From Micromonospora coxensis (GTDB lineage: Bacteria; Actinomycetota; Actinomycetes; Mycobacteriales; Micromonosporaceae), in contig NZ_LT607753.1 of NCBI RefSeq assembly GCF_900090295.1, positions 6,200,001-6,264,000 on the forward strand: DNA of 64,000 nt, written 5' to 3'. The notes below the pieces were generated by a model. It was not told the DNA's origin. It searched no databases and was given only the letters and a program-made list of their open reading frames with translations. Below are positions 5,183 through 49,658 of this stretch, one piece after another. A program made the position numbers and the translations under genes. The first letter of the stretch is position 1, and each line of letters opens with the position of its first letter.

Positions 5183-5233
5183 ACGCTACGGATCCCGACG
5201 CGGTGGCGTACACCCCTAGCCGCCACCCCTAGC
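5183..5233 (-). promoter_or_regulatory. NRPS promoter with two TAGGGGT boxes
   Basis: Read on the minus strand, GCTAGGGGTG occurs twice (5233-5224 and 5220-5211), the two copies 13 nt apart. The proximal T (5218) lies exactly 30 nt upstream of TAGCGT (5188-5183), a plausible -10 hexamer. A start near 5175 would leave a leader of about 150 nt before the NRPS ATG at 5024. The same box-to-hexamer spacing recurs at five other promoters in the window, which is the main support. Confidence 0.7.
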
Positions 5234-5582
5234 CGACCGGTGGCGGAACGGGCTGCGGGCACTCGGCTGTCCGGCCCATCCCGCGCCCGGATCGCCGCTG
5301 ACTATGCTTCGTCGATCATGAGCCAGGCGGTGGCCCGCAACCACCACCGCCTGCTGGTGCGCACCTCGCCGGAGCAGTGCTGACCACAAGCCAGCCGCTG
5401 CCTGGGCCGGTCCGACCCGGGACCGTCCGGCGGTGCGCACGGCACGCCCGACTGTCACGGCCGAGCGGCCTCACCACACCGGGACGCCACGCATCACGTT
5501 CTCCGCTGTTCGTGGACGTCGTGCACCCGGAATTCGTGCCATCCCCGAGGCCCCCTGCGGGCCGGCATGTCAGGAGATCCCC
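5234..5582. other. Intergenic stretch before ATP-grasp gene
   Basis: No convincing gene here. It should hold the rightward promoter for the ATP-grasp gene, but no TAGGGGT box occurs in that direction. TATGCT at 5303-5308 is a weak -10 candidate without a clear -35. AGGAG at 5572-5576 is the ribosome-binding site for ATG 5583. Confidence 0.5.
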
Positions 5583-6773
5583 ATGGACGGGCCGATCCAG
5601 GTACAGATTTTCTCCCCCGAGGGCGTGCTCCTCGCCCGGCCACCCAGCCCGGTGGCGACCGCCGGCAGCCGCTACCTGACCGCCGCCGGAGTGGGCCTGA
5701 ACAACGGGCTGGACATGGTCACCGGGCTGCACCTGACCCTGCCGCACCAGGCGGCGACCATCTGCAGCACCGGAGCCACCGCGGACAAGTCGCTGCGCCT
5801 GATCAGCCGCTGTGGCCTCAAGGTCCCCAGTGACCTGCGCGAGTTCCGGTCCGGTACGCAGGCGGTCCAGCTCGCCCGGGAGGCCGCCGACCGGGGCGAG
5901 CTGTTGGAACTCCAGTTCCCCCCACAGGACCCGCAGCTGCGCGCGGCGCCGGCCCGCAACTCGCCGGAGCTGCTGACCCGGCTCAACAACAAGACCGTCC
6001 TGGAGACCCTGATCGCACCGGAGTACCTGCCCCGGCGTCAGGTCGCCACCCCCGCCGAGGTGCGCCGGATCGTGCAGGAGGACCGCCGCCCGGCGGTCGT
6101 CAAGCCGGCCGGCACCGAGGTGTACAGCGGGATCGCGATCTTCACCAGACGGTTGCAGGATCGGCTGAACCGGTCGATGTTCCAGCAGATGGAACAGGTC
6201 AGTGATCGGTGGATCGTCGAGGAGGAGGTTCCCTTCAGGACGGTCTGGGGAATCCAGTTCGCCGTCACGGTGAGCGGTTCGGTGGAGTACCTCGGGTCGT
6301 CCGTCCATCTACCTCAGCCCACCTCGACGTGGACCGGTTGTGTGCTGGACGATGACCAACCGCCGGCGGAACTGGTCGAAGCGCTGACCGTAGGGGTGCG
6401 AAAGGCCAGCGCCCTCGGGTACCGGGGGTACTGCTCGTTCGACGCGGGGATCAGCCGCACCGGTGAGCTGCGGGTGATCGACCCGAACTTCCGGGTCAGC
6501 GGCGCCACCACCTCGGTGCTGCACCGCAGCTCGCTGCTGGGTCAGCACCCGTGCGCCATGACCACGTTCTTCACCCTCGCGCCCGGGGTCGACGCCGAAC
6601 CGGTCCTCGCCCCCTTCATCGACCGTGGACAGCTCGTCGTGTTCATGCACTACGACCCCGCGATGACGGACAACGGCCTGTTCCCGGCGACCATCCTCGG
6701 CATGGTCGGCGCCTCGGGACGGGACAGTTGCGGCGTGCTGATCGCGCAGATCCAGCGGGCGCTGAGCAGCTGA
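5583..6773 (+). CDS. ATP-grasp carboxylate-amine ligase-like protein
   Basis: Protein of 396 residues with an ATP-grasp fold in its C-terminal two thirds. Visible elements are the lysine strand AVVKPAG (Lys174), the acidic strand WIVEEEV (Glu213-215) that would bracket the adenine, and the metal-binding IDPNFR (Asp300, Asn302, Arg304). Enzymes of this family activate a carboxylate as acyl phosphate and join it to an amine or thiol. The substrate cannot be read from sequence. The N-terminal 130 residues resemble no family I can name. ATG 5583 is preferred over an upstream in-frame start at 5433 because AGGAG lies 6 nt before it. It stands alone, divergent from the NRPS genes and convergent with the cyclase gene, and may form an amide on a precursor made by those neighbours. 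It lacks the TAGGGGT box. Confidence 0.8.
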   Translation: MDGPIQVQIFSPEGVLLARPPSPVATAGSRYLTAAGVGLNNGLDMVTGLHLTLPHQAATICSTGATADKSLRLISRCGLKVPSDLREFRSGTQAVQLAREAADRGELLELQFPPQDPQLRAAPARNSPELLTRLNNKTVLETLIAPEYLPRRQVATPAEVRRIVQEDRRPAVVKPAGTEVYSGIAIFTRRLQDRLNRSMFQQMEQVSDRWIVEEEVPFRTVWGIQFAVTVSGSVEYLGSSVHLPQPTSTWTGCVLDDDQPPAELVEALTVGVRKASALGYRGYCSFDAGISRTGELRVIDPNFRVSGATTSVLHRSSLLGQHPCAMTTFFTLAPGVDAEPVLAPFIDRGQLVVFMHYDPAMTDNGLFPATILGMVGASGRDSCGVLIAQIQRALSS

Positions 6774-6778
6774 CGGAC

Positions 6779-6808
6779 CACCCCGGGCCGCGCCGGCGGC
6801 CCGGGGTG
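6779..6808. terminator. Bidirectional hairpin between convergent genes
   Basis: Perfect 11 bp inverted repeat (CACCCCGGGCC at 6779-6789, GGCCCGGGGTG at 6798-6808) with an 8 nt loop. It fills the 38 bp gap between the stop of the ATP-grasp gene and the stop of the convergent cyclase gene. There is no T-run, as is usual in high-GC actinobacteria. Confidence 0.85.
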
Positions 6809-6811
6809 CGG

Positions 6812-8837: not shown

Positions 8838-8890
8838 CGCCCCCGCCGCCGCTCGCGCCGGTCGGCCGACGGCCGGATCTGGGGACGGGT

Positions 8891-8935
8891 TAGGGGGTGA
8901 CAGGGGTAGGTCGGCGGCAGGGCGCTCGGAAGGAT
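8891..8935 (+). promoter_or_regulatory. PKS1 promoter with paired boxes
   Basis: TAGGGGG (8891) and CAGGGGT (8901) lie 10 nt apart, one helical turn. The proximal box starts 29 nt upstream of AAGGAT (8930-8935), a weaker -10 candidate lacking the leading T. The same layout, with 10 nt between boxes and 29 nt to the hexamer, is found at the PKS4 promoter. PKS1 starts at 9004. Confidence 0.55.
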
Positions 8936-9003
8936 TGCACCGTTACGGCGAGCGAGGTCTACGCCGCGGATGAGGAGTTTCGCCGACGGACGGATGTGGT
9001 GAC

Positions 9004-12000
9004 ATGCTTCGGAGCGACCTGGTCCAGCCGTTGCCCGCGCTGCTGAGGGCCCACGCCGACAGGTTCGGGGACAAGGTCGCGTTCCGCGACGACCGCCGCG
9101 CGGTCGGGTACGCCGACCTGGAGGCACGGACCCGCCGGCTGGCCGGGCACCTCGCCTCGGCCGGGGTGGCCCGTGGCGAGCGGGTGGCCTTCTGCCTGGG
9201 CAACCGGGTGGAGACGGTCGAGACGTGGCTGGCCGTCACCCGGGCCGCCGCGGTCGGTGTGCCGCTGAACCCGCGCAGCACCGACGCGGAGCTGGCCCAC
9301 CTGCTGGACGACTCCGGCGCGGTCCTGGTGGTCACCGACCCCGAACACCTGGCGCAGCTGCTGCGGCTGCGCGCGGACCGGCCGTACCTGCGGATCTGGG
9401 TGACCGGGGACGACCCCGCGCCCGCCGGTGTCGCGGCCTGGCGCGACCTCGCCGACGCCGAGCCGGGCGTCGACGCGCGCGACGACCTGGGCCTCGACGA
9501 GGTCGCCTGGATGCTCTACACCTCCGGCACCACCGGCCGGCCCAAGGGCGTGCTGTCCACCCAGCGCACCTGCCTGTGGTCCGTCGCCGCCTGCTACGTC
9601 CCGATCCCCGGCCTCACCCCGGACGACCGGGTGGTCTGGCCGCTGCCGCTGTTCCACAGCCTGTCCCACATCGGCTGCGTGCTCAGCGTGACCGCCGTAG
9701 GCGCCACCGCCCGGATCGTCGACGGCTTCTCCGCCGACGACGTGCTGCGCGCCGTGGCGTCCGACGAGGCGACCGTGCTGGCTGGCGTGCCGGCCATGTA
9801 CCACCACCTGATCTCCGCCGCCCGCGACACCGGCTTCCGCGCCCCCGCCCTGCGGGTCTGCCTGGTCGGCGGGGCGATCACCACGGCGGCGCTGCGCACC
9901 GCGTTCCGCGAGGTCTTCGCCGCGCCGCTGCTCGACGCGTACGGCAGCACCGAGACCTGCGGGTCGATCGCGATCAGCCGGCCGGACCGGCCCCCGGTCG
10001 ACGGCTCCTGCGGGCTGCCCGTGCCGGGGGTGCAGGTGCGGCTGGTCAGCCCGCAGACCGGCCTGGACGTCCCGACGGGCGCCGAGGGCGAGGTGTGGGT
10101 ACGCGGGCCGAGCGTGATGCTCGGCTACCACGGCCTGCCGGAGGTGACCGCCGCCGCGCTGCGCGACGGCTGGTACCGCACCGGTGACCTGGCCCGCCGC
10201 GACGCCGACGGCAACCTCTTCGTCACCGGCCGGCACCAGGAGCTGATCATCCGGGGCGGGGAGAAGGTCCACCCGTCCGAGGTGGAGGAGGCGCTGCGCG
10301 CGGTGCCCGGCGTCGCCGACGTGGCGGTGACCGGCCGCCCGCACGACGTGCTCGGCGAGGTGCCGGTGGCGTTCGTCGTTCCCGGGCCGGAGGGCTTCGA
10401 CCCCCGCGCCGCGTACGCCGCGTGCCGGGAGCGGCTCTCCTACTACAAGGTCCCCGACGAGCTGTACGAGATCGGGCAGGTTCCCCGCACCGCCTCCGGC
10501 AAGGTGACCCGCCGGCTGCTGCTGGCGCGCCCGGCCCGGCTGCGCGCGATCAACGCCGCCCACCACGAGTCGGCCAGCCGGATCTCCTGGCGACCGCTGG
10601 ACCTGACCGCCGTACCGGCCCGGACCGGCCGCCGCTGGGCGGTCGTCGGCGCCGACGCCGAGGCACTGGTCGCGCTGCTGCGCCCGACCGCCGACGGGGA
10701 CCGGTTCGCCGCCCACCCGGACCTCGCCGCGCTGCGCGGACACCCCGACGTGCCGGACGTGACGGTGCTGCTCGACGGTGACGCGCCGCAGCTCGCCGAC
10801 CGGGTGCGCGGCTGGCTCGCCGACGACCGGCACGCCGCCGCCCGGCTGGTGCTGCTGACCACCGGCGCGGTGGACGCGTCCACCCCGGACCGGGCCGACG
10901 ACCCGGACCTCGTGCCCGCCGGCGTCGTCACCTGGGCGGTGGGGCGCAGCCTCCAGGCGGCGTACCCGGACCGGATCGTGCTGGTCGACCGGGACGCCGA
11001 CGACCGCTCGTCGGCCCTGCTGCCGGCCGCCGTCGACGCCGGCGTGGCGCAGCTCGCCCTGCGGGGCGGCGCCGCCCGGCACCCGGTCCTCGCACCGGCC
11101 CCCGCCGGCTCGGCGGCGCGACCGGCGACCGTCGTCGACCCGGCCGCCCTCACGGTGGTCACCGGCGTCGACGCGCGGGCCGGGGCGGCGCTGGCCCGGC
11201 ACCTGACCGCCGCGCACGGCGCCCGCCGGCTGCGGCTGCTGACCACCGGCCCGACCACCGACGCCGCCCGCGACGACGCGGGCTCCTCCGCCGTACGGCC
11301 CGGCACCTCGCCACCCGCCGACGCCGCCACCTCGAGGCCGGACGCGGGCGACCCGACCGGGCTGGTCGCCGACCTGACCGACGCCGGCGCCGAGGCCGTC
11401 GCGGTGGTCGCGCTGCCGGCCGGCGACGGGCTCGGGCCGGCCGGGCCCGACGAGCCGGTCGGCGCGGTCTTCCTCTGCCCGTCCGACGCCGACCTCGACG
11501 ACGACGCGGCCGTCGCCCGGCTGCTCGCCCTCGCCGCCGCGCTGGACGCCCGGACCCGGCACGCCGCCGCCACGGCGTTCACCGTCGCCGTCCCGGCGGC
11601 CGTGCTGCTCGGCACGGCCGGCGGGGAGCGGGCGGCGGCGGCCGTCGGCGCGTTGCACGCCCTTCTCGCCCGCCGTCGCGCGGCGGGGCTGCCCGCCCGG
11701 CTGCTCGGCACGACCGGCGACGCCGCGGCGGGGGAGGGCGGCACGGCCGTCCGGGCCGGGCTCGCCGCGTTCGACGTCGCCCACGACGGCGGCGACCTGG
11801 TGCTGCTGGCCGTCGCGGCCGACCGGGCCGTCGCGGCCCACCCCGCCTGGCGCGCGCCGGCCCGCGACGGCGTCGACGGCGAGCCGGATGCCGCCGTGCT
11901 GCGCCGCCGGCTGGCCCGGCTGACCGGCGCCGACGGGGACCGGCTCGTGCTCGACCTGGTCCGGGCCGCCACCGCCGAGGTCGCCGGCCTGCCCGGCGCG

Positions 12001-15000
12001 GCGGCGGTCCGCCCCGGCCGCGCCTTCACCGAACTCGGCTTCACCAGCGTCGGCGCGGTCGCGCTGCGCGACCGGCTCGCCCGGGCCACCGGGGTACGGC
12101 TCTCCGCCACCGCCGCCTTCGACCACCCGAGCCCCGACGCCCTCGCCCGGCACCTGGCCGCCCGGCTGCGCGGCGCCGCCCCGGACGTCCCGGTCGCCCC
12201 GGTCGCCCCGGTCGCGGGCGCCGACGTGGACGACCCGGTGGTCGTCGTCGCCATGGCCTGCCGGCTGCCCGGCGGGATCGGCTCCCCCGAGGAGCTGTGG
12301 GACCTCGTCGCGCGGGGCGGTGAGGGGCTCACCGGCTTCCCCGCCGACCGGGGCTGGGACCTGACCCGGTTGTTCGCCGACGACCCCGACCAGCCCGGCA
12401 CGTCGTACGTGCGCGTCGGTGGGTTCCTGCCGGACGCGGGGGACTTCGACGCCACCCTGTTCGCGATCAGCCCGCGCGAGGCCCTGGCCATGGACCCGCA
12501 GCAGCGGCTGCTGCTGGAGACCTCCTGGGAGCTGTTCGAACGGGCCGGCATCGACCCGACCTCGCTGCGCGGCAGCGCCACCGGTGTCTTCACCGGCGTC
12601 ATGCACCACGACTACGCCGCCAACCTGCGCCAGGCGCCGCCCGGCACGGAGGGCTACCTCGGTGTCGGCACCGCCGGCAGCGTCGTCTCCGGCCGGGTGG
12701 CGTACGCGCTGGGGTTGGAGGGGCCGGCGGTCACCGTGGACACCGCCTGCTCGTCGTCGCTGGTCGCGCTGCACCTGGCCGCGCAGGCGCTGCGCGCCGG
12801 GGACTGTGTGCGGGCGGTGGCCGGCGGGGTCGCGGTGATGGGCACCCCGCAGGCGTTCGTCGAGTTCAGCCGGCAGCGCGGGCTCGCCCCCGACGGCCGG
12901 TGCAAGGCGTTCGCCGACGCCGCCGACGGCACCGGCTGGTCCGAGGGTGTCGCCGTGCTGCTGCTGGAACGGCTCTCCACCGCCCGCCGCGACGGGCACC
13001 GGGTCCTCGCCGTGCTGCGCGGCAGCGCGGTCAACTCCGACGGCGCCTCCAACGGACTCACCGCCCCCAACGGCCCCGCCCAGGAGCGGGTCATCCGCCG
13101 GGCGCTGGCCGCCGCCGGCCTCACCGCCGCCGACGTGGACGCCGTCGAGGCGCACGGCACCGGCACCCGGCTCGGCGACCCGATCGAGGCGCAGGCGCTG
13201 CTCGCCACGTACGGCGTGGGACGCGGGGACGCGGCGCCGCTGGCGTTGGGCTCGCTGAAGTCCAACCTCGGCCACACCCAGGCCGCCGCCGGGGCGGCCG
13301 GGGTGATCAAGATGATCCTCGCCATGCGGCACGGGACGCTGCCGCGCACCCTGCACGTGGACGCCCCGACGTCCGAGGTGGACTGGTCCGCCGGCGCGGT
13401 GCACCTGCTCACCGAGGCCCGCCCGTGGCCCCACGTGGACCGGCCCCGGCGGGCCGGCGTCTCGTCGTTCGGCATCAGCGGCACCAACGCCCACGTCATC
13501 GTCGAGGCGCCCCCGGCCGACCCGGCGCCCACCGCCACGCCGCACCCCGCAGGCCACGCCGCACCGCCCGCCACGACGCACCGGACGCCAGCCCTAGCCG
13601 TCCCGGCCGCCCCTGTCCCGGGCACCGCCACCCCGGACGCCGCTGCGCCCGCCAGTGCCGCTGCGCCCGCCAGTGCCGCTGCGCCCGCCAGTGCCGCCGC
13701 GCCCGACACCGTCGGCCGGGACACCGACGACGTGCGCCCGGCGGCCGTGCCGTGGCCGCTCTCCGCCGCCACCGGCGAGGCGCTGCGTGACCAGGCGGCC
13801 CGCCTGCTCACCTGGCTCGACGGCCCCGGCGCGGACGCCGATCCGGCCGACGTGGCGCACGCCCTGGCCACCACCCGCGCCGCCCTGGAACACCGGGCCG
13901 TGGTGCTGGCCGGCGACCCGGACACCGCCCGGGCCGGGCTGACCGCGCTGGCCCGCGGCGACGTCGACCCCGACGGTGCCGCCGTGCTCACCGGCCGGGT
14001 CACCGAGGGCCGGCTCGCCCTGCTCTTCGGCGGGCAGGGCGGCCAGCGTCCCGGCATGGGGCGGCGGCTGCGCGCCGCGTACCCGGTCTTCGCCGGCGCG
14101 TACGACGCCGCCTGCGCCGAGCTGGACCGCTGCCTCGCCGGGCACGCCCCGCACCCGATCGCCGACGTCGTCGCCGCCGACGAGGGCGACGGCCTGGCCG
14201 CCCTGCTCGACCGGACCCTCTACACCCAGCCGGCGCTGTTCGCCTTCGAGGTGGCCCTGTACCGGCTGCTGGAGTCCTGGGGCGTACGCCCCGACGTGCT
14301 GCTCGGCCACTCCGTCGGCGAACTGGCCGCCGCGCACGTGGCCGGGGTGTTCTCCCTCGCCGACGCGGCGACGCTGGTGGCCGCCCGGGCCCGGCTGATG
14401 CAGCAACTCCCGGACGGGGGCGCGATGGTCGCCGTCGAGGCCGACGAGGCCGAGGTCACCGCCCACCTGACCGACCGGGTGGGCCTCGCCGCCGTCAACG
14501 GCCCGACCAGCGTGGTGCTCTCCGGCGACGCCGACGCCGTGCTCGCCGTCGCGGCCACCCTGCGCGCCGCCGGCCGGCGGACCAGCCGGCTGCGGGTGTC
14601 GCACGCGTTCCACTCCCCGCGCATGGAGCCGATGCTCGACGCGTTCCGGGAGGTGGCCGCCGGCCTCACGTACCGCACCCCGCAGCTGCCCGTGGTGTCC
14701 GACCTGACCGGCCGCCCGGTCGAGGCGGCCCGGCTCTGCTCGCCCGACTACTGGACGGCTCACGTACGCGGCACCGTCCGCTTCCTGGACGGGATGCGCG
14801 CCCTGCGCGAGCAGGGGGCCACCACCTTCCTGGAGATCGGCCCGGGCGGGGTGCTCACCGCGATGGCCCAGGACTGCCTCGCCACCGACACCGACGACCT
14901 GGCCTTCGTCCCCGCCGTGCGCACCGTCGACGGCGAACCCGGGGACCTGCTCGCCGCCGTCGCCCGGCTGCACGTGCGGGGCGTCGCCGTGCGCACCGCC

Positions 15001-18000
15001 GCGCTCGCCGGAGCGGGCCCGCGCCGCCGGGTCGACCTGCCCACGTACGCCTTCCAGCGGCGGCACTACTGGCTGCCGTACTCGGCGGTGGCCGGTGGCC
15101 CGGCCGACGTCGGGCTCGCCGACGCCGGGCACCCGCTGCTCGGCGCGGTGCTGCCGGTCGCCGGCACCGGGCAGGTCGTCTGCACCGGCCGGCTCGCCGC
15201 GACCACCCACCCGTGGCTGGTCGCGCCCGACGGCGGCCCGGCGCTGCTGCCCGCCACCGCCGTGCTGGACATGCTCACCCACCTCGGGGGACTCCTCGAC
15301 ACCCCGACCGTGCAACGGCTGCGGGTGCCCGCCCCGGTGCCGTTGCCGGCGGAACTCGCCGTCGACGTGCAGGTCGCCGTCGACGCCCCGGACGAGCACC
15401 TGCGCCGGGTGGCGCGCTGCCACGTCCGGGCCGCCGACGGCCAGCCGTGGCGGGAGGTCGCCGAGGCCGTGCTCGCCCCGGCCGACCCGACCGCCGGCCC
15501 GGCCACCACCGTCCCGGCGTGGCCGCCCGCCGGGGCCCGGCCGGTGGACCTGGACACCCCGCGCCGGCGTGCCCTCGCCGGTGAGCCGGCCCGCGCCGCG
15601 TGGGTCGCCGGGGACCGGCTCTTCGTCGACGTACGCCTGCCCGACGACGCCCGCGACGCCGACGCCGAGCGGTACGGCGTGCACCCGCTCGTGCTGGACG
15701 CGGCCCTGCGCCTGTTGCCGCTGGCCGACTTCGCCACCGCCGACCCGGACTCCGGCGGCCGGCCGGTGCCCACCGACTGGTCCGGGGTGCGCGTCCACGC
15801 CACCGGCGCGCACGCGCTGCGGGTCTGCCTGGCCCCCGCCGGGGCGGACGCGGTGACGCTCAGCGCCGTCGACGACGCCGGCGCGCCGGTGCTCGACGTC
15901 GACCGGGTGGTGCTGCGCCACGTGGCGCCACCGGCCGACGCCCCGCCGCCTCCGCCGGACGCCGCCCCCGCCGGCCTGTACGCCGTCGACTGGCTGCCCG
16001 CCACGGCCCCGGCCACGCCGGTGCCCGCCTGGACCCTCGCAGACGGCGTGCCCCCGGACGGGCCGCTGCCGCCGGTGCTGGTGCTGCGGGTCGGCGACGG
16101 GGATCCGGACCGCCCGGTGCCCGACCGCGCGCACACCGTCGGCCTCGACACCCTCGGCGTGCTCCAGCGCTGGCTGGACGACCCCCGCGCCGAGAACACC
16201 CGGCTCGCCGTCGCCGTGCGCGCCGACGACCCGGTGCACGCCCCGGTCGCCGGGCTGGTCCGGGTCGCCCGGGCCGAGCACCCCGACCGGTTCCTGCTGC
16301 TCGCCCTCGACGCGGCCGACGACACCGCCGTGCGGGCCGCCCTGACCGTCGCGACGGACGAGCCCGAGGTGGCCGTCCGCGACGGCCGTGCCCTGCTGCC
16401 CCGGCTGCGCCCCGTCGAGCACCCCACCGCCGGCCCGCCCGCGCCGGGCGCGGCCGGCCCGCTGCCGGCGCTGGCCGGCGGCACCGTGCTGGTCACCGGC
16501 GGCACCGGCGGGATCGGCCGGCACGTCGCCACCCACCTCGCCGCCGTCCACGGCGTGACCGAACTGGTGCTGCTCAGCCGCGCCGGCCGCTGGGCGGACT
16601 GGATGGACGCGCTGGTCGACGCCGGGGTGAGCGTGCGGACGGTCGCCGCCGACGTCGCCGACCGGGCGGCCCTCGCCGAGGTCGTCGCCCCGCTCGCCGA
16701 CCGGCTGGTCGCCGTGGTGCACGCCGCCGGAGCCACCGACGACGCGCTGCTCACCGGCCTCGACGCGGCCCGCTGGGAGCGGGCCCTGCGGTCCAAGGTG
16801 CACGGCGCGTGGCACCTGCACGAGCTGACCGCCGGCCTCGACCTGGCCGCGTTCGTGCTGTTCTCCTCGGCGTCGGCCACCTTCGGCAGCCCCGGGCAGG
16901 GCAACTACGCGGCCGGCAACGCGTTCCTCGACGCCCTCGCCGCGCACCGCCGCGCCCACGGCCTGCCGGCGACCGCGCTGGCCTGGGGCCTGTGGGCCGC
17001 CGAGGACGGGATGGCCGGCCGGCTCGGCCCCGCCGACCTGGCCCGCCTCGCCCGGGGCGGCACCCGCCCCCTCGCCACCGCCACCGGCCTGGCCCTGCTC
17101 GACGCCGCGCTGCACGCCGACCGGCCGGCGTTGGTCCCGATCGGGCTGGACCTGGCCGCCGTCCGGGCCTCCGGCGAGGTGCCCGCGCTGCTGCGGGCGC
17201 TGCTGCCCCCGCCGCCGCGCCGGGCCGTCAACGCCGCGCCCGCGCCGGCCGCCGCCACCGGATTCGCCGACCGGCTGGCCGGCCTCGGCGAGCCCGAGCG
17301 GGCCGCCCTGCTGCTCGACCTGGTCCGCGCCCGGTGCGCCACCGTCGTCGGGCACGCCGGCCCCGAGCAGGTCGAGCCGCGCCGGCCGTTCAAGGAGCTG
17401 GGCTTCGACTCGCTGATGGCGGTGGAGCTGAGCAACCGGCTCTCCGCCGTGACCGGCGTCCGGCTCGCCCCGCACGCCGTGTTCAACCACCCCACCCCGG
17501 AGCTGCTCGCCGCGCACCTGCACGCCCGGCTGCTCGGCACCACCGCCACCGAGGTCGTCGACGCCGGCACCGTCGCCCTCGACGAGCCGGTCGCGGTCGT
17601 CGCCATGGCCTGCCGGTTCCCCGGCGGCATCGGCTCACCCGACGAGCTGTGGCGGCTGCTCGACGCCGGCGGGGACGTCATCGGCGACCTGCCCACCGAC
17701 CGGGGCTGGCCCGACCTGTACGACCCGGTCCCCGGCACGCCGGGCCGCACCTACGTGCGCGCGGGCGGGTTCCTCACCGGCATCGCCGACTTCGACGCCG
17801 CGTTCTTCGGCATCAGCCCCCGCGAGGCGCTGGCCATGGACCCGCAGCACCGGCTGCTGCTGGAGACCTCCTGGGAGGCGCTCGAACGGGCCGGCATCGA
17901 CCCGGGCACCCTGCGCGGCAGCCGCACCGGCGTGTTCGCCGGCACCCACGGCCAGGACTACGCCGACCAGATCGCCCCGGGCGTCGCCGCCGACGACGGC

Positions 18001-21000
18001 GAGACCACCGCCGACGAGGGGCACCTGCTCACCGGCACCGCCGGCAGCGTGCTGTCCGGCCGGGTCGCGTACGCCCTCGGGCTGGAGGGGCCGGCGGTCA
18101 CCGTGGACACCGCCTGCTCGGCGTCCCTGGTGGCGCTGCACCTGGCCGTGCAGGCGCTACGGCAGGGCGACTGCGACCTCGCCCTGGCCGGCGGCGTGTC
18201 GGTGCTGTCCAGCCCCGCCGGGCTGACCGGGTTCAGCCGCCAGCGCGGCCTCGCCGCGGACGGCCGGTGCAAGGCGTTCGCCGAGGACGCCGACGGCTTC
18301 GGCATGTCCGAGGGCGTCGGGGTGCTGGTGGTGGAGCGCCTCTCCGACGCCCGCCGCCGGGGACACCCCGTCCTCGCCCTGGTGCGCGGCACGGCCGTGA
18401 ACCAGGACGGCGCGTCCAACGGGCTGACCGCCCCCAACGGGCCGTCGCAGGAGCGGGTGATCCGGGCCGCGCTGGCCGCCGCCGGGCTCGAACCGGCCGA
18501 CGTGGACGCCGTCGAGGCGCACGGCACCGGCACCCCGCTCGGCGACCCCATCGAGGCCGAGGCGATCCTGGCCACCTACGGCCGGCGTCCCGCCGACGCC
18601 CCGCCGCTGCTGCTCGGCTCGGTCAAGTCCAACCTCGGGCACACCCAGGCCGCGGCCGGTGTCGCCGGGGTGCTGAAGATGGTCCTCGCCATGCGGCACG
18701 GCCGGCTGCCGCGCACCCTGCACGCCGAGCGGCGCACCTCCCGCGTCGACTGGGACGCCGGTGCGGTGGAACTGCTCACCGAGGCCCGCCCGTGGCCGCG
18801 CGCCGACCGTCCGGCCCGCGCCGGGGTGTCCTCGTTCGGCATCTCCGGCACCAACGCCCACGTCGTCGTCGAGGCGGTCGCCGCCCCCGAACCCGCCGCC
18901 CCCGAACCCGCCACGCCCGACGGCCCGGTCGCGCTGCCGGGCACCGTCGCCGCGCCGTCGCCGGCGACCGTCGCCGCGCCGGCGGACGCTGCCGCGCCAA
19001 CGCCGTCGACCGCCGCCGTGCCGGCGTCCGCTGCCGTGCCGGCGTCCGCTGCCGTGCCGGCGTCCGCTGCCGTGCCGGCGTCCGCTGCCGCGCCGGCCGG
19101 GGCGCGGGACGCGACGGCGCTGCCGTGGCTGCTGTCCGCGCGTACCCCGGAGGCGCTGGCCGGGCAGGCCCGCCGGCTGCGTGCCCACCTCGCCGAGCGG
19201 CCCGACCAGCCGTCCCTGGACGTGGCCTGGTCGCTGGCCGGCACCCGGGCCACCTTCGACTCCCGGGCCGTGCTGGTCGGCGCCGACCCCGACCGGGTCG
19301 CCGCCGTCCTCGAGGCGCTCGCCGACGGCCGTCCCGCCCCCGAGCTGGTACGCGGCGACGCCCGCCCCACCGGCCGGTGCGTGTTCGTCTTTCCCGGCCA
19401 GGGCTCCCAGTGGCCCGGCATGGGGCTGGACCTGCTCGACGAGGCCCCCGTCTTCGCCGAGCGGATGGCCGCCTGCGACGCCGCGCTGCGGCCGTACCTG
19501 AACTGGTCCCTGCGCGACGTGCTGCGCCAGGCCCCCGGCGCGCCCGGCCTCGACCAGGTCGACGTGGTCCAGCCGGTCCTGTTCGCGGTGATGGTGTCGC
19601 TGGCCGAGCTGTGGCGCTCGTACGGCGTCCAGCCCGACGCCGTGGTCGGCCACTCGCAGGGCGAGATCGCCGCCGCCTGCGTCGCCGGGGTGCTCTCCCT
19701 GCCCGACGCCGCCCGGGTGGTGGCGTTGCGCAGCCGCGCGATCCGGGCGCTGGCCGGGCACGGGGCGATGGCCTCGGTGGCGCTGCCCGCCGACACGGTC
19801 CGCGAGCGGATCGCCCGCCACGGCGACCGGATCGCGGTGGCCGCCGTGAACGGTCCGGCCGCCGTGGTGGTCTCCGGCGACGAGGACGCCGTCGTCGCAC
19901 TCCTCGACGAGCTGGCCGCCGACGGGGCCCGGGTCCGCCGGATCGCCGTCGACTACGCCTCGCATTCCGCCCAGGTGGAGCGCATCCGGGACGAGCTGGC
20001 CGAGGCCCTCGCGCCGATCACCCCCGGCCCGGCGGCGGTGCCGCTGTTCTCCACCACCGACCTGCGCTGGCTCGACGGCGAGGAGATGGGCCCCGACTAC
20101 TGGTACCGCAACCTGCGCCGGCCGGTGGAGCTGGAGCAGGCGGTCCGGGCGCTGGCCGACCAGGGCCACGACACGTACGTCGAGTGCAGCCCGCACCCGG
20201 TGCTCACCGTCGGCGTCGAGGAGACGCTGGCCGAGCAGGACGCCGTGGTCGTCGGCTCGCTGCACCGCGACCAGGGCGACCGGGCCCGGTTCCTGCTCTC
20301 CGCCGCCCAGCTGCACGTGCGCGGTGTGCCGGTCGACTGGCAGCCGGCGTTGGCCGGCGGCCGCCGCGTCGACCTGCCCACCTACGCCTTCACCCACCGC
20401 CGCTACTGGCCGCGGCCGGTGACCGGCCCCGGCGACGTCGGCGCGGCCGGGCTGGACACCTCCGGCCATCCGCTGCTCGGCGCGTCCGTGACGTTGGCCG
20501 AGACCCGAGGGCACCTGTTCACCGGCCGGCTCGCCGCCACCGCCCCGGCGTGGCTGGCCGACCACCGGGTCTCCGGGACCGTGCTGGTGCCGGGCACCGG
20601 GCTGGTCGAGCTGTGCCTGCGCGCCGGCGACGAGGTGGGCTGCCCCGTCCTCGACGAGCTGGTCATCGAGGCGCCCCTGGCGTTGCCGGACGACGCGGCC
20701 ACCCAGGTGCAGGTGGCGCTCGGCCCGGCCGCCGACGACGGCCGCCGCCCGGTCACCGTGCACTCCCGTCCCGCCGACGGCCCGCCCGGCGCCCCGTGGA
20801 CCCGGCACGCCAGCGGCAGCCTCAGCGCCGCCCGAGCCGCCTCGCCGCAAGGGTCCGGCCCCTGGCCGCCGCGCGACGCCCGCCCGGCGGACCTGACCGA
20901 CTTCTACGCCGGCCTCGCCGCCGACGGCTACGGCTACGGGCCCGCCTTCCAGGGCCTGCGCGCGGTGTGGACCACCGCCGACGAGGTGTACGCCGAGGTG

Positions 21001-24000
21001 GAGCTGCCGGCCGCGCCGCGCGCCGACGCCGACCGGTACGCCCTGCACCCGGCCCTGCTCGACGCCGCCCTGCACGCCGCGCACTTCGGCGGCCTCGGCG
21101 ACGCCGGTCCGGACCGGCTGCTGCTGCCCTTCGCGTGGAACGGCGTCACCCTGCACGCCGCCGGGGCCACCGCGCTGCGGGTCCGGATCACCCGGGTCGC
21201 GCCGCACGCCATCGCGCTGACCGTCGCCGACGCCACCGGCGCGCCGGTGGCCGAGGTCGGGTCGCTGGCCATGCGCCCGATCTCCCGCGCCGAACTGGCC
21301 GCCCGGGACGCCGCCGTCGACGACGCGCTGTTCCGCCTCGACTGGCAGCCCCTGGCCGCGCCGGAGCCGGTCGCGCCGGCCCGGGTCGTGGCGCTCGGCC
21401 GGGCCGTCGGCGCGTTCCCGCACCACGCCGACCCGGCCGCGCTCGCCCGCGCCGTCGACGCCGGCGCACCCCTGCCCGACGCCGTCCTCGTCCCGCTGTT
21501 CCGGCCCACCGCCTTCCCCTCCACCGCCCCCGACTCCACCGGCCCCGACGTCGCCGCCGCTCCGGACGTCGCCCTCGCCGCCTCGGACGCCGCCGCCCTC
21601 GCCCCGGGGACCGCCGCCGGCGACGGTGACGCGGCCACCGGCACCGTCGCCGCTGCCGGTCCGGGGGATGTTCCGGGCACGGCAGGCACGGCCACCACCG
21701 GTGGCACTGCCGCCGGTGTGCACGAGCCGGCGGGCGGGGACCGGGCCCGGGCCGTCGCCGCCGAAGCCCTCGCCCTGGTGCAGGGCTGGCTGGCCGACCC
21801 CCGCTGGTCGGGCACCCCGCTGGTCCTGCTCACCCGGGGCGCGGTGGGCGTGCACAGCCCCGCCGAGGTCGACGACCCGGACGCCGCCACCGCCTGGGGA
21901 CTGGTCCGCTCCGCCCAGTCCGAGCACCCCGACCGGTTCGTCCTGCTCGACGCCGACACCCCGCCGGACGCCGGCCAGCTCGCCGCCGTCCTCGCCACCG
22001 GCGAACCCCAGGTGGCGGTGCGCGGTGGCACCCCGTACGCCCCCCGGCTGGCCCGCCGCGCCGAGGCGACGACGCTCACCCCGCCGGCCACCGCGACCGC
22101 CTGGCGGCTCGACGCGCCGGCGCGCGGCAGCCTCGACACCCTCGTCCTGGCCGCCACCGACGCCGCCGACGTGCCGCTCGGCCCGCTGGAGGTGCGGGTC
22201 CGGGTCCGCGCCGCCGGTTTGAACTTCCGCGACGTGCTCAACGCGCTCGGCCTCTACCCGGGCGACCCCGGGCCCCCCGGCGGCGAGGCGGCCGGCGTGG
22301 TCACCGAGGTCGGCGCCGAGGTCACCGACCTGCGCCCCGGCGACCGGGTGCTCGGCGTCTTCGTCGGCTGCTTCGGCCCGGTCGCGGTCACCGACCGCCG
22401 GCTGCTGGTGCCGATGCCCGACGGCTGGACGTACGCGCAGGCCGCGTCCGTGCCGGTGGTCTTCCTCACCGCGTACCACGGGCTGGTCGACCTGGCCGGG
22501 CTGCGCTCCGGCGAGGCGGTGCTGGTGCACGCCGCCGCCGGTGGCGTCGGCATGGCCGCCGTCCAGCTCGCCCGCCACCTCGGCGCCGAGGTGTACGCCA
22601 CCGCCAGCCCCGGCAAGTGGCCGGTGCTGCGGGCGATGGGCGTCCCCGACAGCCACCTCGCCTCGTCGCGCACCCTCGACTTCGAGGCGCACTTCCGGGC
22701 CGTCACCGGCGGGCGCGGCGTCGACGTGGTGCTCGACTCCCTCGCCCGGGAGTTCGTCGACGCGTCACTGCGGCTGCTGCCCCGCGGCGGCCGGTTCGTC
22801 GAGATGGGCAAGACCGACCTGCGCGACCCCGACCGGGTCGCCGCTGACCACCCCGGCGTCGCCTACCAGGCGTACGACCTGACCACCGTGGACCCGGCCC
22901 GGATCCAGCGGATGCTGGTCGAGCTGATGGAGCTGTTCGCGGCCGGGACGCTCACCCCGCTGCCGGTGCGCGCCTGGGACGTCCGGCAGGCCCCCGACGC
23001 GTTCCGCTACGTCCAGCAGGCCCGGCACGTCGGCAAGGTGGTGCTCACCGTGCCGACGCCGTGGGCGCCGGACGGCACCGTCCTGGTCACCGGCGGCACC
23101 GGCCTGCTCGGCGGGCTGGTCGCCCGCCGTCTGGTCACCGGTCACGGGGTCCGCCACCTGCTGCTGGCCAGCCGCGGCGGCCCGGACGCCCCCGGCGCGG
23201 CCGAGCTGACCGCCGAGCTGACCGCCCTCGGCGCCACGGTCACCGTGGCCGCCGCCGACGTGGCCGACCGCGACGCGGTGGACCGGCTCGTCGCCGCCGT
23301 GCCGGCCGCCCACCCGCTCACCGCCGTGGTGCACCTCGCCGGGGTGCTCGACGACGGGGTGGTCACCGCGCTCACCCCGCAGCGCATCGACACCGTCTTC
23401 CGGCCCAAGGTGGACGCCGCCCGGCACCTCGACGAGGCGACCCGCCACCTCGACCTCGCCGGGTTCGTGCTCTTCTCCTCCGGCGCCGGGGTGTTCGGGG
23501 TCCCCGGCCAGGGCAACTACGCCGCCGCCAACGCGTACCTGGACGCCCTGGCCCGGCGGCGGCGCGGCGCCGGCCTGCCCGCCCAGTCGTACGCCTGGGG
23601 CCTGTGGGAGCAGGCCAGCGCGATGACCGCCGGGCTGGACCGCGCCGACCCCCGGATCACCGCCCGCGACGGGCAGGTCGCCATCCCCTCCGACCTCGGC
23701 ATGGCGCTGTTCGACGCCGGGCTGGCCGCCCCGGAGGAGCACCTGGTGCCCACCCGCGTCGACGTGTCCGCCCTCGCCGGCCGGGCCACCGTGCCGGCGC
23801 TGATGCGGGGCCTGGTCCGGCGGGAACGCCCCCGGGCCCGCGCCGAGGCCGCCACCGGCGGCCGGGACCTGGCCGGCCGGCTGCGCGCGCTCACCGGCCC
23901 GGAACAGTCCGCCCTGCTGCTGGACCTGGTCCGCGCCGAGGCGGCCACCGTGCTCGGCCACGCCACCCCGGACGCGATCGGGCCCGCGCAGGCGTTCAAC

Positions 24001-24378
24001 GAGGTCGGCTTCGACTCGCTGACCGCGGTCGAGCTGCGCAACCGGCTCACCGAGGCCACCGGGCACCGGCTGCCCGCCACGGCGATCTTCGACTACCCGG
24101 ACCCGACCGCGCTGGCCGGCTTCCTGCGCGCCCAACTGGTGCCCGACGGCGCGCAGGCCGTCCCGGCGATCCTCGCCGAGCTGGAGGGCCTGGAACGGTC
24201 GCTGGCCGAGACGGTGGTGGAGCCGGAGCTGCACAGCCAGGTCGCGGCGCGGCTGGAGGTGCTGGTCGCCAAGTGGCGGACGATGCGCGGCGCGTCCGCC
24301 ACCGACCACGACCTGGACCTCGACCAGGCCAGCGACGACGAGATCTTCAGCCTGATCGACACGGAACTCGGGCTCTGA
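9004..24378 (+). CDS. PKS1: loading module, modules 1 and 2
   Basis: Type I polyketide synthase of 5124 residues. Loading: acyl-CoA ligase-type domain (1-520; [11 protein letters not shown] near 172, GKVTRR Lys500), a KR-like remnant (about 533-960) without the GGTGxxG loop or catalytic Tyr, and ACP (Ser1015). Module 1: KS Cys1249; AT with GHSVGE (Ser1770) and HAFH, so malonyl; DH with the catalytic His replaced (WLVAP, Pro2075), so dead; KR with TGGTGGIG and active Tyr, Asp of the B-type motif present; ACP Ser2803. Module 2: KS Cys3038 (CSAS); AT with GHSQGE (Ser3551) and YASH, so methylmalonyl; DH His3854; ER with [12 protein letters not shown] with LDD (B-type); ACP Ser5005. The acidic C-terminal tail is a docking element for PKS2. 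The free carboxylic acid starter is activated in cis, as in AHBA- and cyclohexene-carboxylate-primed systems. The ATG has only a weak ribosome-binding site. Confidence 0.97.
13642..13695 (+). repeat. 18 bp tandem repeat x3, KS1-AT1 linker
   Basis: Three exact copies of GCTGCGCCCGCCAGTGCC, in frame, encoding AAPASA three times. It lies in the flexible Ala/Pro linker after KS1, where length change should be tolerated. Confidence 0.95.
19018..19089 (+). repeat. 18 bp tandem repeat x4, KS2-AT2 linker
   Basis: Four exact copies of GTGCCGGCGTCCGCTGCC, in frame, encoding VPASAA four times. It sits in the matching linker of module 2. Its unit length equals that of the module 1 repeat, but the sequence differs. 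Confidence 0.95.
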
Positions 24379-24413
24379 TGCCGGGCCCGACGCGCACGGA
24401 CGAGGAAACGGCG

Positions 24414-25997: not shown

Positions 25998-26019
25998 CCA
26001 TCCCGCTCAAGGAGTAGAC

Positions 26020-26907: not shown

Positions 26908-26915
26908 CGCACGCC

Positions 26916-26955
26916 GGCCCCCGCCGCCCCGGGTACGTCCCGGGTGGCGGGGGCC
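26916..26955. terminator. Bidirectional hairpin, methyltransferase/thioesterase
   Basis: GGCCCCCGCC (26916-26925) pairs perfectly with GGCGGGGGCC (26946-26955). The inner part continues as an imperfect CCCGGG-rich stem around a short loop. It lies between the convergent stops of the methyltransferase (26907) and thioesterase (26975). Confidence 0.8.
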
Positions 26956-26974
26956 GCGTCGTGCGTGCGCCGGA

Positions 26975-27733
26975 TCAGCCCACCGTCGTGCGGGTCAGGG
27001 CCGTCGAGAGGGTACGCAGGATGGCCGGCTGGTGCTGGGCCAGGAAGAAGTGCCCGCCCGGGAAGACCTGGAGGTCGAACGGGCCGGTGCTGTGCTGCTC
27101 CCACGCCTTGGCCTCGTCGATGCTGGTCTTCGGGTCGTCGTCACCGGTGAACACCGTCACCGGGCAGCTCAGCTTCGGTCCCGGCGTGTACGCGTACGTC
27201 TCCGCGGCCCGGTAGTCGTTGCGGATCGCCGGCAGCGCCGCCCGCAGCATCTCCGGGTCGCCGAGCACCGCCTGGTTGGTGCCGCTGAGCTTGCGTACGT
27301 CGGCCAGCAGGCCCTCGTCGTCGAGCAGGTGCACCGTCTCGTGCCGGGCGCAGGACGGCGCCCGCCGCCCGGACGGGAACAGGTGCGCGACCGGGGTCCC
27401 GCCGTCGGCCTCGATCAGCCTCGCCACCTCGAAGCCCAGGGTCGCGCCCATGCTGTGCCCGAAGATCGCCAACGGCTGGTCCCGCCACGGCCGCAGCACC
27501 CCGTACACCTGCCGGGCCAGCTCACCGATGCTGTCCACGCACGGCTCCAGCCGGCGGTCCTGCCGCCCCGGGTACTGGATGGCGAGGACCTCCACGGCCG
27601 GCGACAGGGCCCGGGAGACGGGGAAGTAGAAGCTCGCGGAGCCACCGGCGTGCGGCAGGCACACCAGCCGCGGGGCGCCGGCCGGCGCCGGATGGAACCG
27701 GCGGACCCACAGGCCGTTGTCTGAGTCGGTCAT
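26975..27733 (-). CDS. Type II thioesterase
   Basis: Alpha/beta-hydrolase of 252 residues of the free-standing PKS/NRPS editing type. It has LPHAGGSA near residue 27, nucleophile elbow GHSMGA (Ser near 92), FTGDDDP carrying the acidic residue and GGHFFL carrying the catalytic His. It would clear mis-acylated carrier domains rather than release the finished chain. ATG 27733 gives the usual N-terminus for the family. A longer in-frame form from 27769 is less likely because it places extra residues before the conserved start. It is convergent with the methyltransferase and divergent from PKS2, with its own boxed promoter at 27793-27828. Confidence 0.93.
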   Translation of the reverse strand: MTDSDNGLWVRRFHPAPAGAPRLVCLPHAGGSASFYFPVSRALSPAVEVLAIQYPGRQDRRLEPCVDSIGELARQVYGVLRPWRDQPLAIFGHSMGATLGFEVARLIEADGGTPVAHLFPSGRRAPSCARHETVHLLDDEGLLADVRKLSGTNQAVLGDPEMLRAALPAIRNDYRAAETYAYTPGPKLSCPVTVFTGDDDPKTSIDEAKAWEQHSTGPFDLQVFPGGHFFLAQHQPAILRTLSTALTRTTVG

Positions 27734-27792
27734 TCTCACGAGGTCCTTCCAGCGGAGGTGCCCGGACACCTGGCACCGGGGCGATCACAGGG

Positions 27793-27828
27793 ACGCTAAA
27801 CCGACCCGTCGGGGCCCGGACACCCCTA
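27793..27828 (-). promoter_or_regulatory. Thioesterase promoter, TAGGGGT box
   Basis: On the minus strand TAGGGGT starts at 27828, and TAGCGT starts at 27798 exactly 30 nt downstream. Box, hexamer and distance are identical to the NRPS promoter. The thioesterase ATG is at 27733. It faces away from the PKS2 promoter, forming a back-to-back pair. Confidence 0.7.
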
Positions 27829-27846
27829 GCGGACGGGCGTACGGGT

Positions 27847-27882
27847 TAGGGGTTGTCGCAGGTCATCGCGACGCCATAGCTT
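27847..27882 (+). promoter_or_regulatory. PKS2-PKS3 promoter, TAGGGGT box
   Basis: TAGGGGT starts at 27847, and TAGCTT (27877-27882) starts exactly 30 nt further on. The ATG of PKS2 is at 28014, giving a leader of about 125 nt. PKS3 follows PKS2 by 49 bp without its own box, so this promoter probably drives both. Confidence 0.72.
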
Positions 27883-28013
27883 CCCCGCAGAGGGGACCCG
27901 TGGCTCTCGGCTGAATTGTGCTCAAGGAAATCACCGATCTGGCTTGAGGAATTCGCGCATTCGTACCGTCGCCTACGTCAGGTCTCCGCCGGCCACCGCG
28001 ATGGGTCAGGTTG

Positions 28014-33623: not shown

Positions 33624-33672
33624 CCGTCGTACCGCCCCGGCTTGCCGACCAACGCGACAGGTGAATACCCCG

Positions 33673-48369
<14,697 letters not shown>

Positions 48370-48430
48370 CCACCGTCCGCCCCCGGGCGGGTGTCGCCGT
48401 CCCCGACCGGCGCCGCGGCACCCGCCCCAG

Positions 48431-48492
48431 GGCCTGTGTCGACGTCGCCGCATGGGCCCGCCGCAGGCCGGCCGGGGACGTCGACACCGGCC
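48431..48492. terminator. Long inverted repeat after PKS3 (possible terminator)
   Basis: Arms 48431-48446 and 48477-48492 match at 15 of 16 positions, with a perfect 11 bp core (GTGTCGACGTC). The spacer is 30 nt, GC-rich and may fold further. It lies 62 bp after the PKS3 stop, and its right arm abuts the first TAGGGGT box. It may end the PKS2-PKS3 transcript or serve as an operator dyad. Confidence 0.5.
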
Positions 48493-48493
48493 C

Positions 48494-48550
48494 TAGGGGT
48501 GTGCCGTGTCCATCTAGGGGTGTGCCGCCACCGGCGGGCCTCCATAGGGT
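48494..48550 (+). promoter_or_regulatory. Phosphoesterase promoter with two boxes
   Basis: CTAGGGGTGTGCCG occurs twice as an exact 14 bp direct repeat (48493 and 48514), 21 nt apart, two helical turns. The proximal T (48515) starts 30 nt before TAGGGT (48545-48550), the proposed -10. The start codon is at 48647. Confidence 0.7.
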
Positions 48551-48646
48551 CGGAGCCCGTCAGGTGGTCGTACCCGGCCCGCGCGCCGACGCGCCGGCCG
48601 GGCGGTGGGGGTGCGCGCGGGTGCCCGGAGACACGGGAGGTGCCGG

Positions 48647-49498
48647 GTGACCCGGATCCGCCAACTCGTCGCGATCAGCGACCTGCACGTGGTGTACGCG
48701 GAGAACCGCGCCGTCGTCGAGGCGCTGCGCCCCGACGGCGACGAGGACTGGCTGATCGTCGCCGGTGACGTGGGCGAGTTCGCCGCCGACGTCGAGTGGG
48801 CGCTCACCCTGCTGCGCGACCGGTTCGCCAAGGTCATCTGGGCGCCGGGCAACCACGAGCTGTGGACACCCCGCGACGACACCGTCCAACTGCGCGGCGA
48901 GGCGCGCTACCGGCACCTGGTCGAGCTGTGCCGCCGCCTCGGCGTGCTCACCCCGGAGGACCCGTACCCGGTGTGGGACCCGGACGGCGATCCCGTCCTC
49001 ATCGCCCCGCTCTTCGTCGGGTACGACCACAGCTGGCGGCCCCCGGGGACGTACACCCGGGAGCAGGCGCTGGCCCGGGCGCACGAGACCGGGGTGGTCT
49101 GCACCGACGAGATCCTGCTGCACCCCGACCCGTACCCGACCCGGGACGCCTGGTGCCGGGCCCGGGTGATCCAGACCGAGCGGCGGCTCGACGCCGAGCG
49201 CGGCGGGCTGCCCACCGTGCTGGTCAACCACTATCCGCTGGTCCGCGAACCGACCCGGATCCTGCGCTTCCCCGAGTTCGCCCAGTGGTGCGGCACCGAC
49301 CTCACCGCCGACTGGCACCTGCGCTACGACGCCCGCGTCGCCGTCTACGGCCACCTGCACATCCCCCGCACCACCTGGTACGACGGCGTCCGGTTCGAGG
49401 AGGTGTCCGTCGGCTACCCCCGCGAGTGGCGGCGCCGCGCCACCCCGCCCGGACGGCTGCGGACGATCCTGCCGACCCCCGCCCGGCACCTCGGCTGA
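48647..49498 (+). CDS. Calcineurin-like metallophosphoesterase
   Basis: Protein of 283 residues with the full dinuclear-metal motif set: SDLH (Asp12, His14), GD (40-41), GNHE (68-71), VNHYP, and YGHLH near the C-terminus. It has no signal peptide or membrane segment, so it is probably cytosolic. The start is GTG 48647, with GGGAGG (48635-48640) 6 nt upstream. It is the only non-PKS gene between PKS3 and PKS4 and has its own boxed promoter, so it belongs to the pathway regulon. Possible jobs are removing a phosphate from a cyclic precursor (the cyclase branch would start from a phosphate ester) or activating a phosphorylated, self-protected product. The sequence does not decide between them. 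Confidence 0.88.
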   Translation: MTRIRQLVAISDLHVVYAENRAVVEALRPDGDEDWLIVAGDVGEFAADVEWALTLLRDRFAKVIWAPGNHELWTPRDDTVQLRGEARYRHLVELCRRLGVLTPEDPYPVWDPDGDPVLIAPLFVGYDHSWRPPGTYTREQALARAHETGVVCTDEILLHPDPYPTRDAWCRARVIQTERRLDAERGGLPTVLVNHYPLVREPTRILRFPEFAQWCGTDLTADWHLRYDARVAVYGHLHIPRTTWYDGVRFEEVSVGYPREWRRRATPPGRLRTILPTPARHLG

Positions 49499-49613
49499 CC
49501 GGCCGCGCCCGACCGGTCCGTCAGCCCGCTGCCGGCCCGTCCCGCGCTGCCGGCCCGGCACCGGCCCGACCCGCCGCACGCTGCGGATATCCGGTCACCG
49601 GGCGGGCGCGAAT

Positions 49614-49658
49614 GAGGGGTCCGTAGGGGTTGGGCCGCCCCGCACCGCTCAGTACCGT
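49614..49658 (+). promoter_or_regulatory. PKS4 promoter with paired boxes
   Basis: GAGGGGT (49614) and TAGGGGT (49624) lie 10 nt apart. The proximal box starts 29 nt before TACCGT (49653-49658). PKS4 starts at 49837, so the leader would be about 170 nt. The 49499-49836 gap holds this promoter and no gene that I can support. Confidence 0.65.

Follow-up and report, generated by a model that had tools for sequence, protein, structure and literature searches.

The window analysed here is the stretch from position 6200001 to 6264000 of the single-contig genome (6.77 Mb) of Micromonospora coxensis, 64,000 nucleotides (nt) in all. Coordinates count from window position 1 unless they are genome positions, and negative values or values beyond the window lie in the flanks, which were taken to 6.000-6.464 Mb. 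Gene models were obtained from a simple codon-usage script. The window covers one third of a type I polyketide synthase (PKS) cluster of about 205 kb, and the PKS genes in the gene model span coordinate 9004 to about 185460. The element in question is a seven-letter box, TAGGGGT, standing 29-30 nt ahead of a TANNNT hexamer at several promoters of this cluster, and we discuss which regulator may read it; the candidates include the LAL proteins (large ATP-binding regulators of the LuxR family).

According to the gene model, the PKS1 gene (9004..24378, plus strand) is downstream of a degenerate box, while the thioesterase gene (26975..27733, minus strand) and the metallophosphoesterase gene (48647..49498, plus strand) are each downstream of a box of their own. 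The closest named record for the phosphoesterase is from M. halophytica, 98% identical, in a search that may omit the window's own genome. From its gene order and size, the cluster looks like an ortholog of the Micromonospora quinolidomicin (qnm) cluster, which is larger than 200 kb and widespread across Micromonospora (PMC8698034). In the published qnm table, the first PKS gene has a loading module and two modules, followed by one and then three (PMC8698034). Compared at the level of whole genes, the PKS genes here agree with that table in size and order.

Box and hexamer in the window and across the cluster

The pattern TAGGGGT-N22..25-TANNNT has five matches in the window, compared with a mean of 0.02 in 100 shuffles, and the box alone occurs 10 times against 1.31 expected. 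The exact matches are 5183-5218 and 27793-27828 on the minus strand and 27847-27882, 48515-48550 and 49624-49658 on the plus strand, all with a spacer of N22 or N23, i.e. 29-30 nt from start to start. The promoter of the nonribosomal peptide synthetase (NRPS) genes carries its proximal box at 5212..5218 and the hexamer TAGCGT, a putative -10, at 5183..5188 (minus strand, 30 nt). At the thioesterase promoter, also on the minus strand, the box is at 27822..27828 and the putative -10, again TAGCGT, at 27793..27798. Divergent from it on the plus strand is the PKS2 promoter, with the box at 27847..27853 and the candidate hexamer TAGCTT at 27877..27882. The other two are on the plus strand as well: the phosphoesterase promoter with its proximal box at 48515..48521 and the presumed -10, TAGGGT, at 48545..48550, and the PKS4 promoter with its proximal box at 49624..49630 and the possible -10, TACCGT, at 49653..49658 (29 nt). 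All of these boxes and hexamers were found exactly where the original prediction had placed them.

That prediction had counted six promoters with TAGGGGT. At the sixth, PKS1, the plus-strand box at 8901..8907 reads CAGGGGT, with one mismatch, and therefore the list consists of five exact sites and one degenerate site; the hexamer AAGGAT at 8930..8935, a weak putative -10, does stand 29 nt from the box as claimed. Copies upstream of the proximal box were missing from the earlier list. They comprise TAGGGGT at 5225..5231 (minus strand, NRPS, 13 nt upstream), TAGGGGT at 48494..48500 (plus strand, phosphoesterase, 21 nt upstream), TAGGGGG at 8891..8897 (plus strand, PKS1) and the degenerate GAGGGGT at 49614..49620 (plus strand, PKS4, 10 nt upstream). 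The TAGGGGT copies inside genes at 573, 3820 and 6391 have no TANNNT at 29-30 nt, in agreement with what had been stated for them.

Outside the window, the motif was also found at the promoters of a DegT aminotransferase gene (-4773, plus strand), PKS6 (103354, plus strand), an AMP-ligase gene (196333, plus strand) and a second AMP-ligase gene (200243, minus strand). This brings the cluster to nine promoters where TAGGGG is followed by TANNNT at 29-30 nt, the degenerate PKS1 not counted. Four of its promoters (27828, 27847, 196333 and 200243) have one exact box only, and degenerate second copies may be present there.

The genome contains 138 TAGGGGT in total. Within the 206.7-kb cluster there are 30 TAGGGG, of which three have TANNNT at 29 nt and six at 30 nt, compared with five TANNNT in all over the 58 other distances (10 to 69 nt). 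For the background we used six 200-kb blocks and the cluster flanks of the same genome (1,457,300 bases; together with the cluster, 24.6% of the genome letters). Its 83 TAGGGG are never followed by TANNNT at 29 or 30 nt; the average is 0.17 per distance. An equal density of the motif elsewhere, which the original prediction had named as contrary evidence, is not borne out in this sample. Chance as the origin of the motif was ruled out by the shuffles and by the lack of 29/30-nt pairs in the background.

Some further copies stand apart from these promoters. Minus-strand boxes in phase with each other occupy 185463-185560 (locus L012), directly upstream of an ABC-transporter gene and pointing away from it, and they are kept in three other clusters.

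At the left end, the flanks of the TAGGGGT copies at 573-579 and 3820-3826 are identical across 87 bases, and therefore the two neighbouring NRPS genes have a near-identical stretch in common, probably from a recent duplication, judging from the letters. This NRPS pair (about -1375 to 5213) sets the cluster apart from other qnm-type clusters: it is missing from that place in three of four, and in the fourth, G008, it is present with the box. Further left, a triple box heads genes for a DegT aminotransferase, a Gfo/Idh/MocA oxidoreductase and a HAD hydrolase in a row (L005, 15412-18438; about -4588 to -1562). We take this trio to resemble the starter genes for 3-amino-5-hydroxybenzoic acid (AHBA). 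A similar trio adjoins the LAL gene of the plasmid locus L334.

Conservation, phasing and LAL genes

Orthologous promoters in the genus largely keep the arrangement. The thioesterase promoter has a box and TANNNT at 28 of 28 loci (29 nt at 19, 30 nt at seven and 31 nt at two), and the divergent PKS2 motif is present at 27 of 28 (30 nt at 25 and 29 nt at two), the one in which it was not found being G136. The motif was found in 26 of 26 PKS4 promoters (24 by automatic motif extraction and two further) and in 21 of 26 phosphoesterase promoters (19 and two, respectively); the motifs of L236 and L246, which are on short contigs, were found separately and are included in the counts. In L230, L231, L234 and L238, two boxes of the phosphoesterase promoter run into coding sequence and lack a -10 at 29-30 nt, which may reflect a deletion.

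Since the promoters in these counts were picked by the motif itself, the box and hexamer letters are 100% conserved by construction, and therefore conservation was taken from unselected alignments, which cover the thioesterase/PKS2 gap (27 distinct rows, 28 loci) and PKS4 (26 rows) only. In the gap, the boxes score 1.00 (thioesterase) and 0.97 and the hexamers 0.98 and 0.91, compared with 0.70 for the other columns. At PKS4, the box scores 1.00 and the hexamer 0.96, compared with 0.55 for the other columns. Other single columns are also conserved, as 27% (thioesterase/PKS2) and 15% (PKS4) of them reach 0.95.

Besides the cluster in the window, we read three full clusters (G012, G032 and G091) and the partial one in G008. 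Boxes are kept in them before DegT, PKS1, thioesterase, PKS2, PKS4 and PKS6. Both AMP-ligase genes are boxed in G012, G032 and G091. At the phosphoesterase promoter, G091 is the only one of the four without a box. At PKS1, all four have TAGGGG in the place of the upstream box and CAGGGGT in the place of the proximal one, and the hexamer is AAGACT, not TANNNT. The NRPS promoter of G008 keeps the box, 30 nt from the hexamer TATGGT. At least one close match to the cluster metallophosphoesterase exists in 155 of 160 genus genomes, cluster copies included. No motif was seen near its relatives outside the cluster in the stretches examined (L247-L250 and the genome's own paralog, G000:C1:1022382-1023200); in one of them, L249, there are two TAGGGG without the hexamer.

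The extra boxes are placed regularly. In the five clusters, 33 further AGGGG lie within 60 nt upstream of 39 motif promoters, and 31 of the 33 are 10-13 or 20-23 nt from the proximal copy. For 33 promoters elsewhere (L082-L160 and L328-L335, a set that includes some orthologs of this cluster), the distance is 10-13 or 20-22 nt for 24 of 26 copies. These distances are one or two helical turns. The box is also asymmetric, as CCCC[TA] follows within 30 nt downstream in only three of the 72 motif promoters.

The genome has 35 GerE matches, two of which, beside the end of the cluster, lie at 6388965 and 6392296. The corresponding genes, LAL1 and LAL2, belong to the same cluster, 125-131 kb beyond the right edge of the window, and encode 934 and 922 amino acids (aa), respectively. 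In each protein an N-terminal AAA_16 domain is combined with a C-terminal GerE domain and a Walker A sequence, and therefore both genes are of the LAL type, with 39% identity between the two. With the full-length MalT model, LAL1 scores 25.3 bits against a cut-off of 537, and LAL2 is not among the matches listed. In the gap between the two genes there are boxes at 191823 and 191999 (L012), on the strand opposite to LAL1, and G012, G032 and G091 all preserve TAGGGGTTGC at the 191999 box; autoregulation is a possible reading of their position.

LAL1 and the cluster occur together in the genus. Orthologs of LAL1 with at least 70% identity are present in 26 of 160 genomes (own included), plus one split over two contigs, and the cluster thioesterase with at least 78% identity is present in 28 of 160. 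A LAL1 ortholog is found in 27 of the 28 thioesterase-bearing genomes, and the sole difference between the two sets is G136, in which no LAL1 ortholog was found at E 1e-100. The G136 locus (L200) keeps the thioesterase box and lacks a detectable PKS2 box, and its cluster is perhaps decaying, to go by its sequence.

The motif was also followed into other genera, using 74 actinobacterial loci (L087-L160, 1.46 Mb) that were picked solely for encoding a relative of the phosphoesterase. They contain 251 TAGGGG; TANNNT follows at 29 nt in ten cases and at 30 nt in another ten, compared with 0.68 per other distance. The motif is present in 10 of 13 loci with a LAL gene (above 150 bits) but in only 8 of the 61 others (Fisher p 1.2e-5, uncorrected for relatedness). 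One of these eight, L117, has a partial LAL gene with a helix-turn-helix 62% identical. In a second set, plasmid LAL loci (8 of 16 records found, 332 kb), six TAGGGGT have TANNNT at 29-30 nt, compared with 0.02 per other distance. A phylum-wide search yielded LAL loci in only 5 of 296 genomes, and a Streptomyces set showed LALs in 84 of 246 genomes; the generality of the motif rests on the 74 loci together with the plasmid loci.

Candidate regulators of the boxed promoters

We consider it most probable that the box is bound by the LAL-type activators that the cluster itself encodes (LAL1, LAL2 or both). They would replace the -35 element and recruit RNA polymerase, so that the boxed operons would be activated together. 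The original prediction had suggested a LuxR/LAL-type pathway activator that is encoded beyond the window and stands in for the -35. This suggestion gains support from the two LAL genes in the cluster, the co-conservation of LAL1, the co-occurrence of motif and LAL genes, the conserved geometry and, in the part of the genome sampled, the density of the motif. In this account we infer the binding, the activation, the hexamer as -10 and which LAL acts. One activator protomer would dock on the asymmetric TAGGGGT through its C-terminal LuxR/GerE helix-turn-helix. The box starts 29-30 nt before TANNNT, which, taken as the -10, would put the box at about -42 to -36; from there the docked activator could substitute for the -35 element and recruit RNA polymerase. 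Boxes one or two helical turns upstream would allow neighbouring protomers of an ATP-dependent oligomer to bind cooperatively on the same face of the DNA, in the manner of MalT, and the boxed operons of the qnm-type cluster would be switched on together.

Several observations weigh against the LAL explanation. Boxes without a -10 at 29-30 nt are partly phased as well: within the five clusters, 23 of 26 copies upstream of 86 such boxes are in phase, many of them belonging to the same arrays, and elsewhere the figure is 27 of 60 copies, upstream of 294 such boxes. The reverse-orientation boxes before the ABC transporter and in the LAL1-LAL2 gap also have no -10. Five of the 26 phosphoesterase promoters are without the arrangement; in four of them the box abuts the coding sequence directly, and in the fifth no box was found. 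As for the other genera, the co-occurrence statistic ignores relatedness among the loci, three of the 13 LAL loci have no motif, and three motif loci have neither a LAL gene nor a gene for a Streptomyces antibiotic regulatory protein (SARP). Four more of the 18 motif loci (L098, L101, L102 and L105, near 9888), all from Streptomyces and homologous to one another, have a nearby SARP gene while no LAL lies within 10 kb. The full motif lies within 20 kb in only three of the eight plasmid LAL loci (L332, L333 and L335), and the sites in two of these, L332 and L333, are near copies of each other; in L334 the only candidate is TAGGGGG, with its TANNNT at 31 nt, and four plasmid loci have none. Finally, SCO6993, a LAL of S. 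coelicolor, bound short inverted repeats and not a single asymmetric box (PMC9628970), and therefore not every LAL need follow the TAGGGGT rule.

An alternative, to which the four Streptomyces loci point, is that the box is a SARP operator. Operators of this kind consist of direct repeats of a heptamer near the -35, spaced by about 11 or 22 bp, and the protein bound here could be a SARP such as the large regulator encoded just past the cluster (1028 aa, BTAD, 205904-208990). Heptamers repeated at 10-13/20-23 bp fit the repeat geometry of SARP operators (PMC10972967, PMC5930380), and the BTAD gene is close to the cluster. We nevertheless judge this explanation unlikely. A search of the G012, G032 and G091 stretches that keep the boxes did not find this BTAD gene; the G032 stretch covers the whole expected place, and those of G012 and G091 end inside it. 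Four promoters of the cluster have a single exact box, whereas PimR needs two heptamers (PMC5930380), and the ten motif loci with a LAL gene have no SARP match. Thirty SARP loci (100 kb) contain no TAGGGG with the spacing; they hold just 3 TAGGGGT and are therefore a weak control.

It is quite improbable that the box is bound by a NarL/FixJ-type response regulator or an orphan LuxR protein from outside the cluster. Such a protein could come from among the 35 genomic GerE matches, some of which are in short frames of response-regulator size, including one about 49 kb left of the window. However, there is no GerE match between -5 and 188 kb in the window frame, the full motif occurs only in the cluster within the part of the genome sampled, and in other genera it tracks LAL genes.

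The fixed spacing and the promoter position would also suit the -35 and -10 elements of an alternative sigma factor, an explanation to which we give very little credence. Spacers of sigma-factor promoters are generally 16-19 bp, which the gap of 22-23 bp exceeds, and the hexamer resembles the ordinary TANNNT. Helically phased repeated boxes are, to our knowledge, no feature of sigma-factor promoters. A G-rich LuxR-type site near the -35 is common to the box and to the operators of PAS-LuxR (PimM-type) regulators. The probability that the box is half of such an operator is next to nil, because the palindrome of PimM, CTVGGGAWWTCCCBAG (PMC6448028), is present with at most three mismatches only twice in the window against 1.89 expected, neither time at a promoter box, and because of the scarcity of CCCC[TA] after the box noted above.

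Returning to activation by LAL proteins, we can propose a wider rule only tentatively, as rather more likely to fail than to hold: TAGGGGT-N22/23-TANNNT with phased boxes may be a general promoter grammar of actinobacterial LAL activators, in which a rigid class II-like proximal contact would be combined with a variable upstream array that sets the strength or order of the operons. If this is true, sequence alone could suffice to recognise LAL regulons throughout the phylum, orphan regulons among them.

Comparison with known systems

A LAL consensus close to CTAGGGGGTTGC belongs to rapamycin/FK506-type clusters in the patent and journal literature, and the TAGGGGT box has therefore probably been described before. 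Searches of open-licence PMC papers did not show the strict 22/23-nt spacing rule, the helical phasing or a link between motif and LAL genes across genera in print. LAL activators govern many large polyketide clusters, but DNA codes that could be put to use are difficult to find for them; the authors of one LAL study state that they could not predict its consensus site (PMC9628970). A rule that has no match in 1.46 Mb of background would predict both the operons switched on in a silent giant cluster and the regulator to overexpress, and it names the exact bases for mutation.

LAL proteins are established regulators of type I PKS clusters (PMC7105598, PMC5015266, PMC3551636); in actinobacteria they include AveR, PikD, RapH/FkbN, SlnR and MilR (PMC5015266, PMC7105598, PMC3551636), of which AveR targets all ave promoters (PMC7105598). 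The system here is like theirs in having a cluster-situated regulator with an N-terminal ATPase and a C-terminal LuxR helix-turn-helix, and several target promoters. It differs in that the box and the box-to--10 rule are defined by sequence, whereas neither a defined box nor such a rule appears for those regulators in the passages of PMC5015266, PMC7105598 and PMC3551636.

The operators of SARP and SARP-LAL regulators (PimR, DnrI and ActII-ORF4) are similar in that their heptamers, too, are repeated directly around the -35 at intervals of one or two turns. On the other hand, the heptamers are different (CGGCAAG for PimR, PMC5930380), and promoters with a single exact box exist here.

MalT of E. 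coli, the LAL prototype, is likewise a large ATPase with a C-terminal LuxR-type domain and a short box. The upstream region of E. coli malP contains GGATGAGG in the orientation of the gene. The letters are not the same, as the MalT box is GGA[TG]GA (PMC9628970) and the conserved element here is TAGGGGT. MalT forms multimers, binds its boxes cooperatively and recruits RNA polymerase (PMC4381067). With an asymmetric box in a fixed place, phased arrays and an ATPase-type regulator, the boxed promoters of this cluster would match the MalT way of working.

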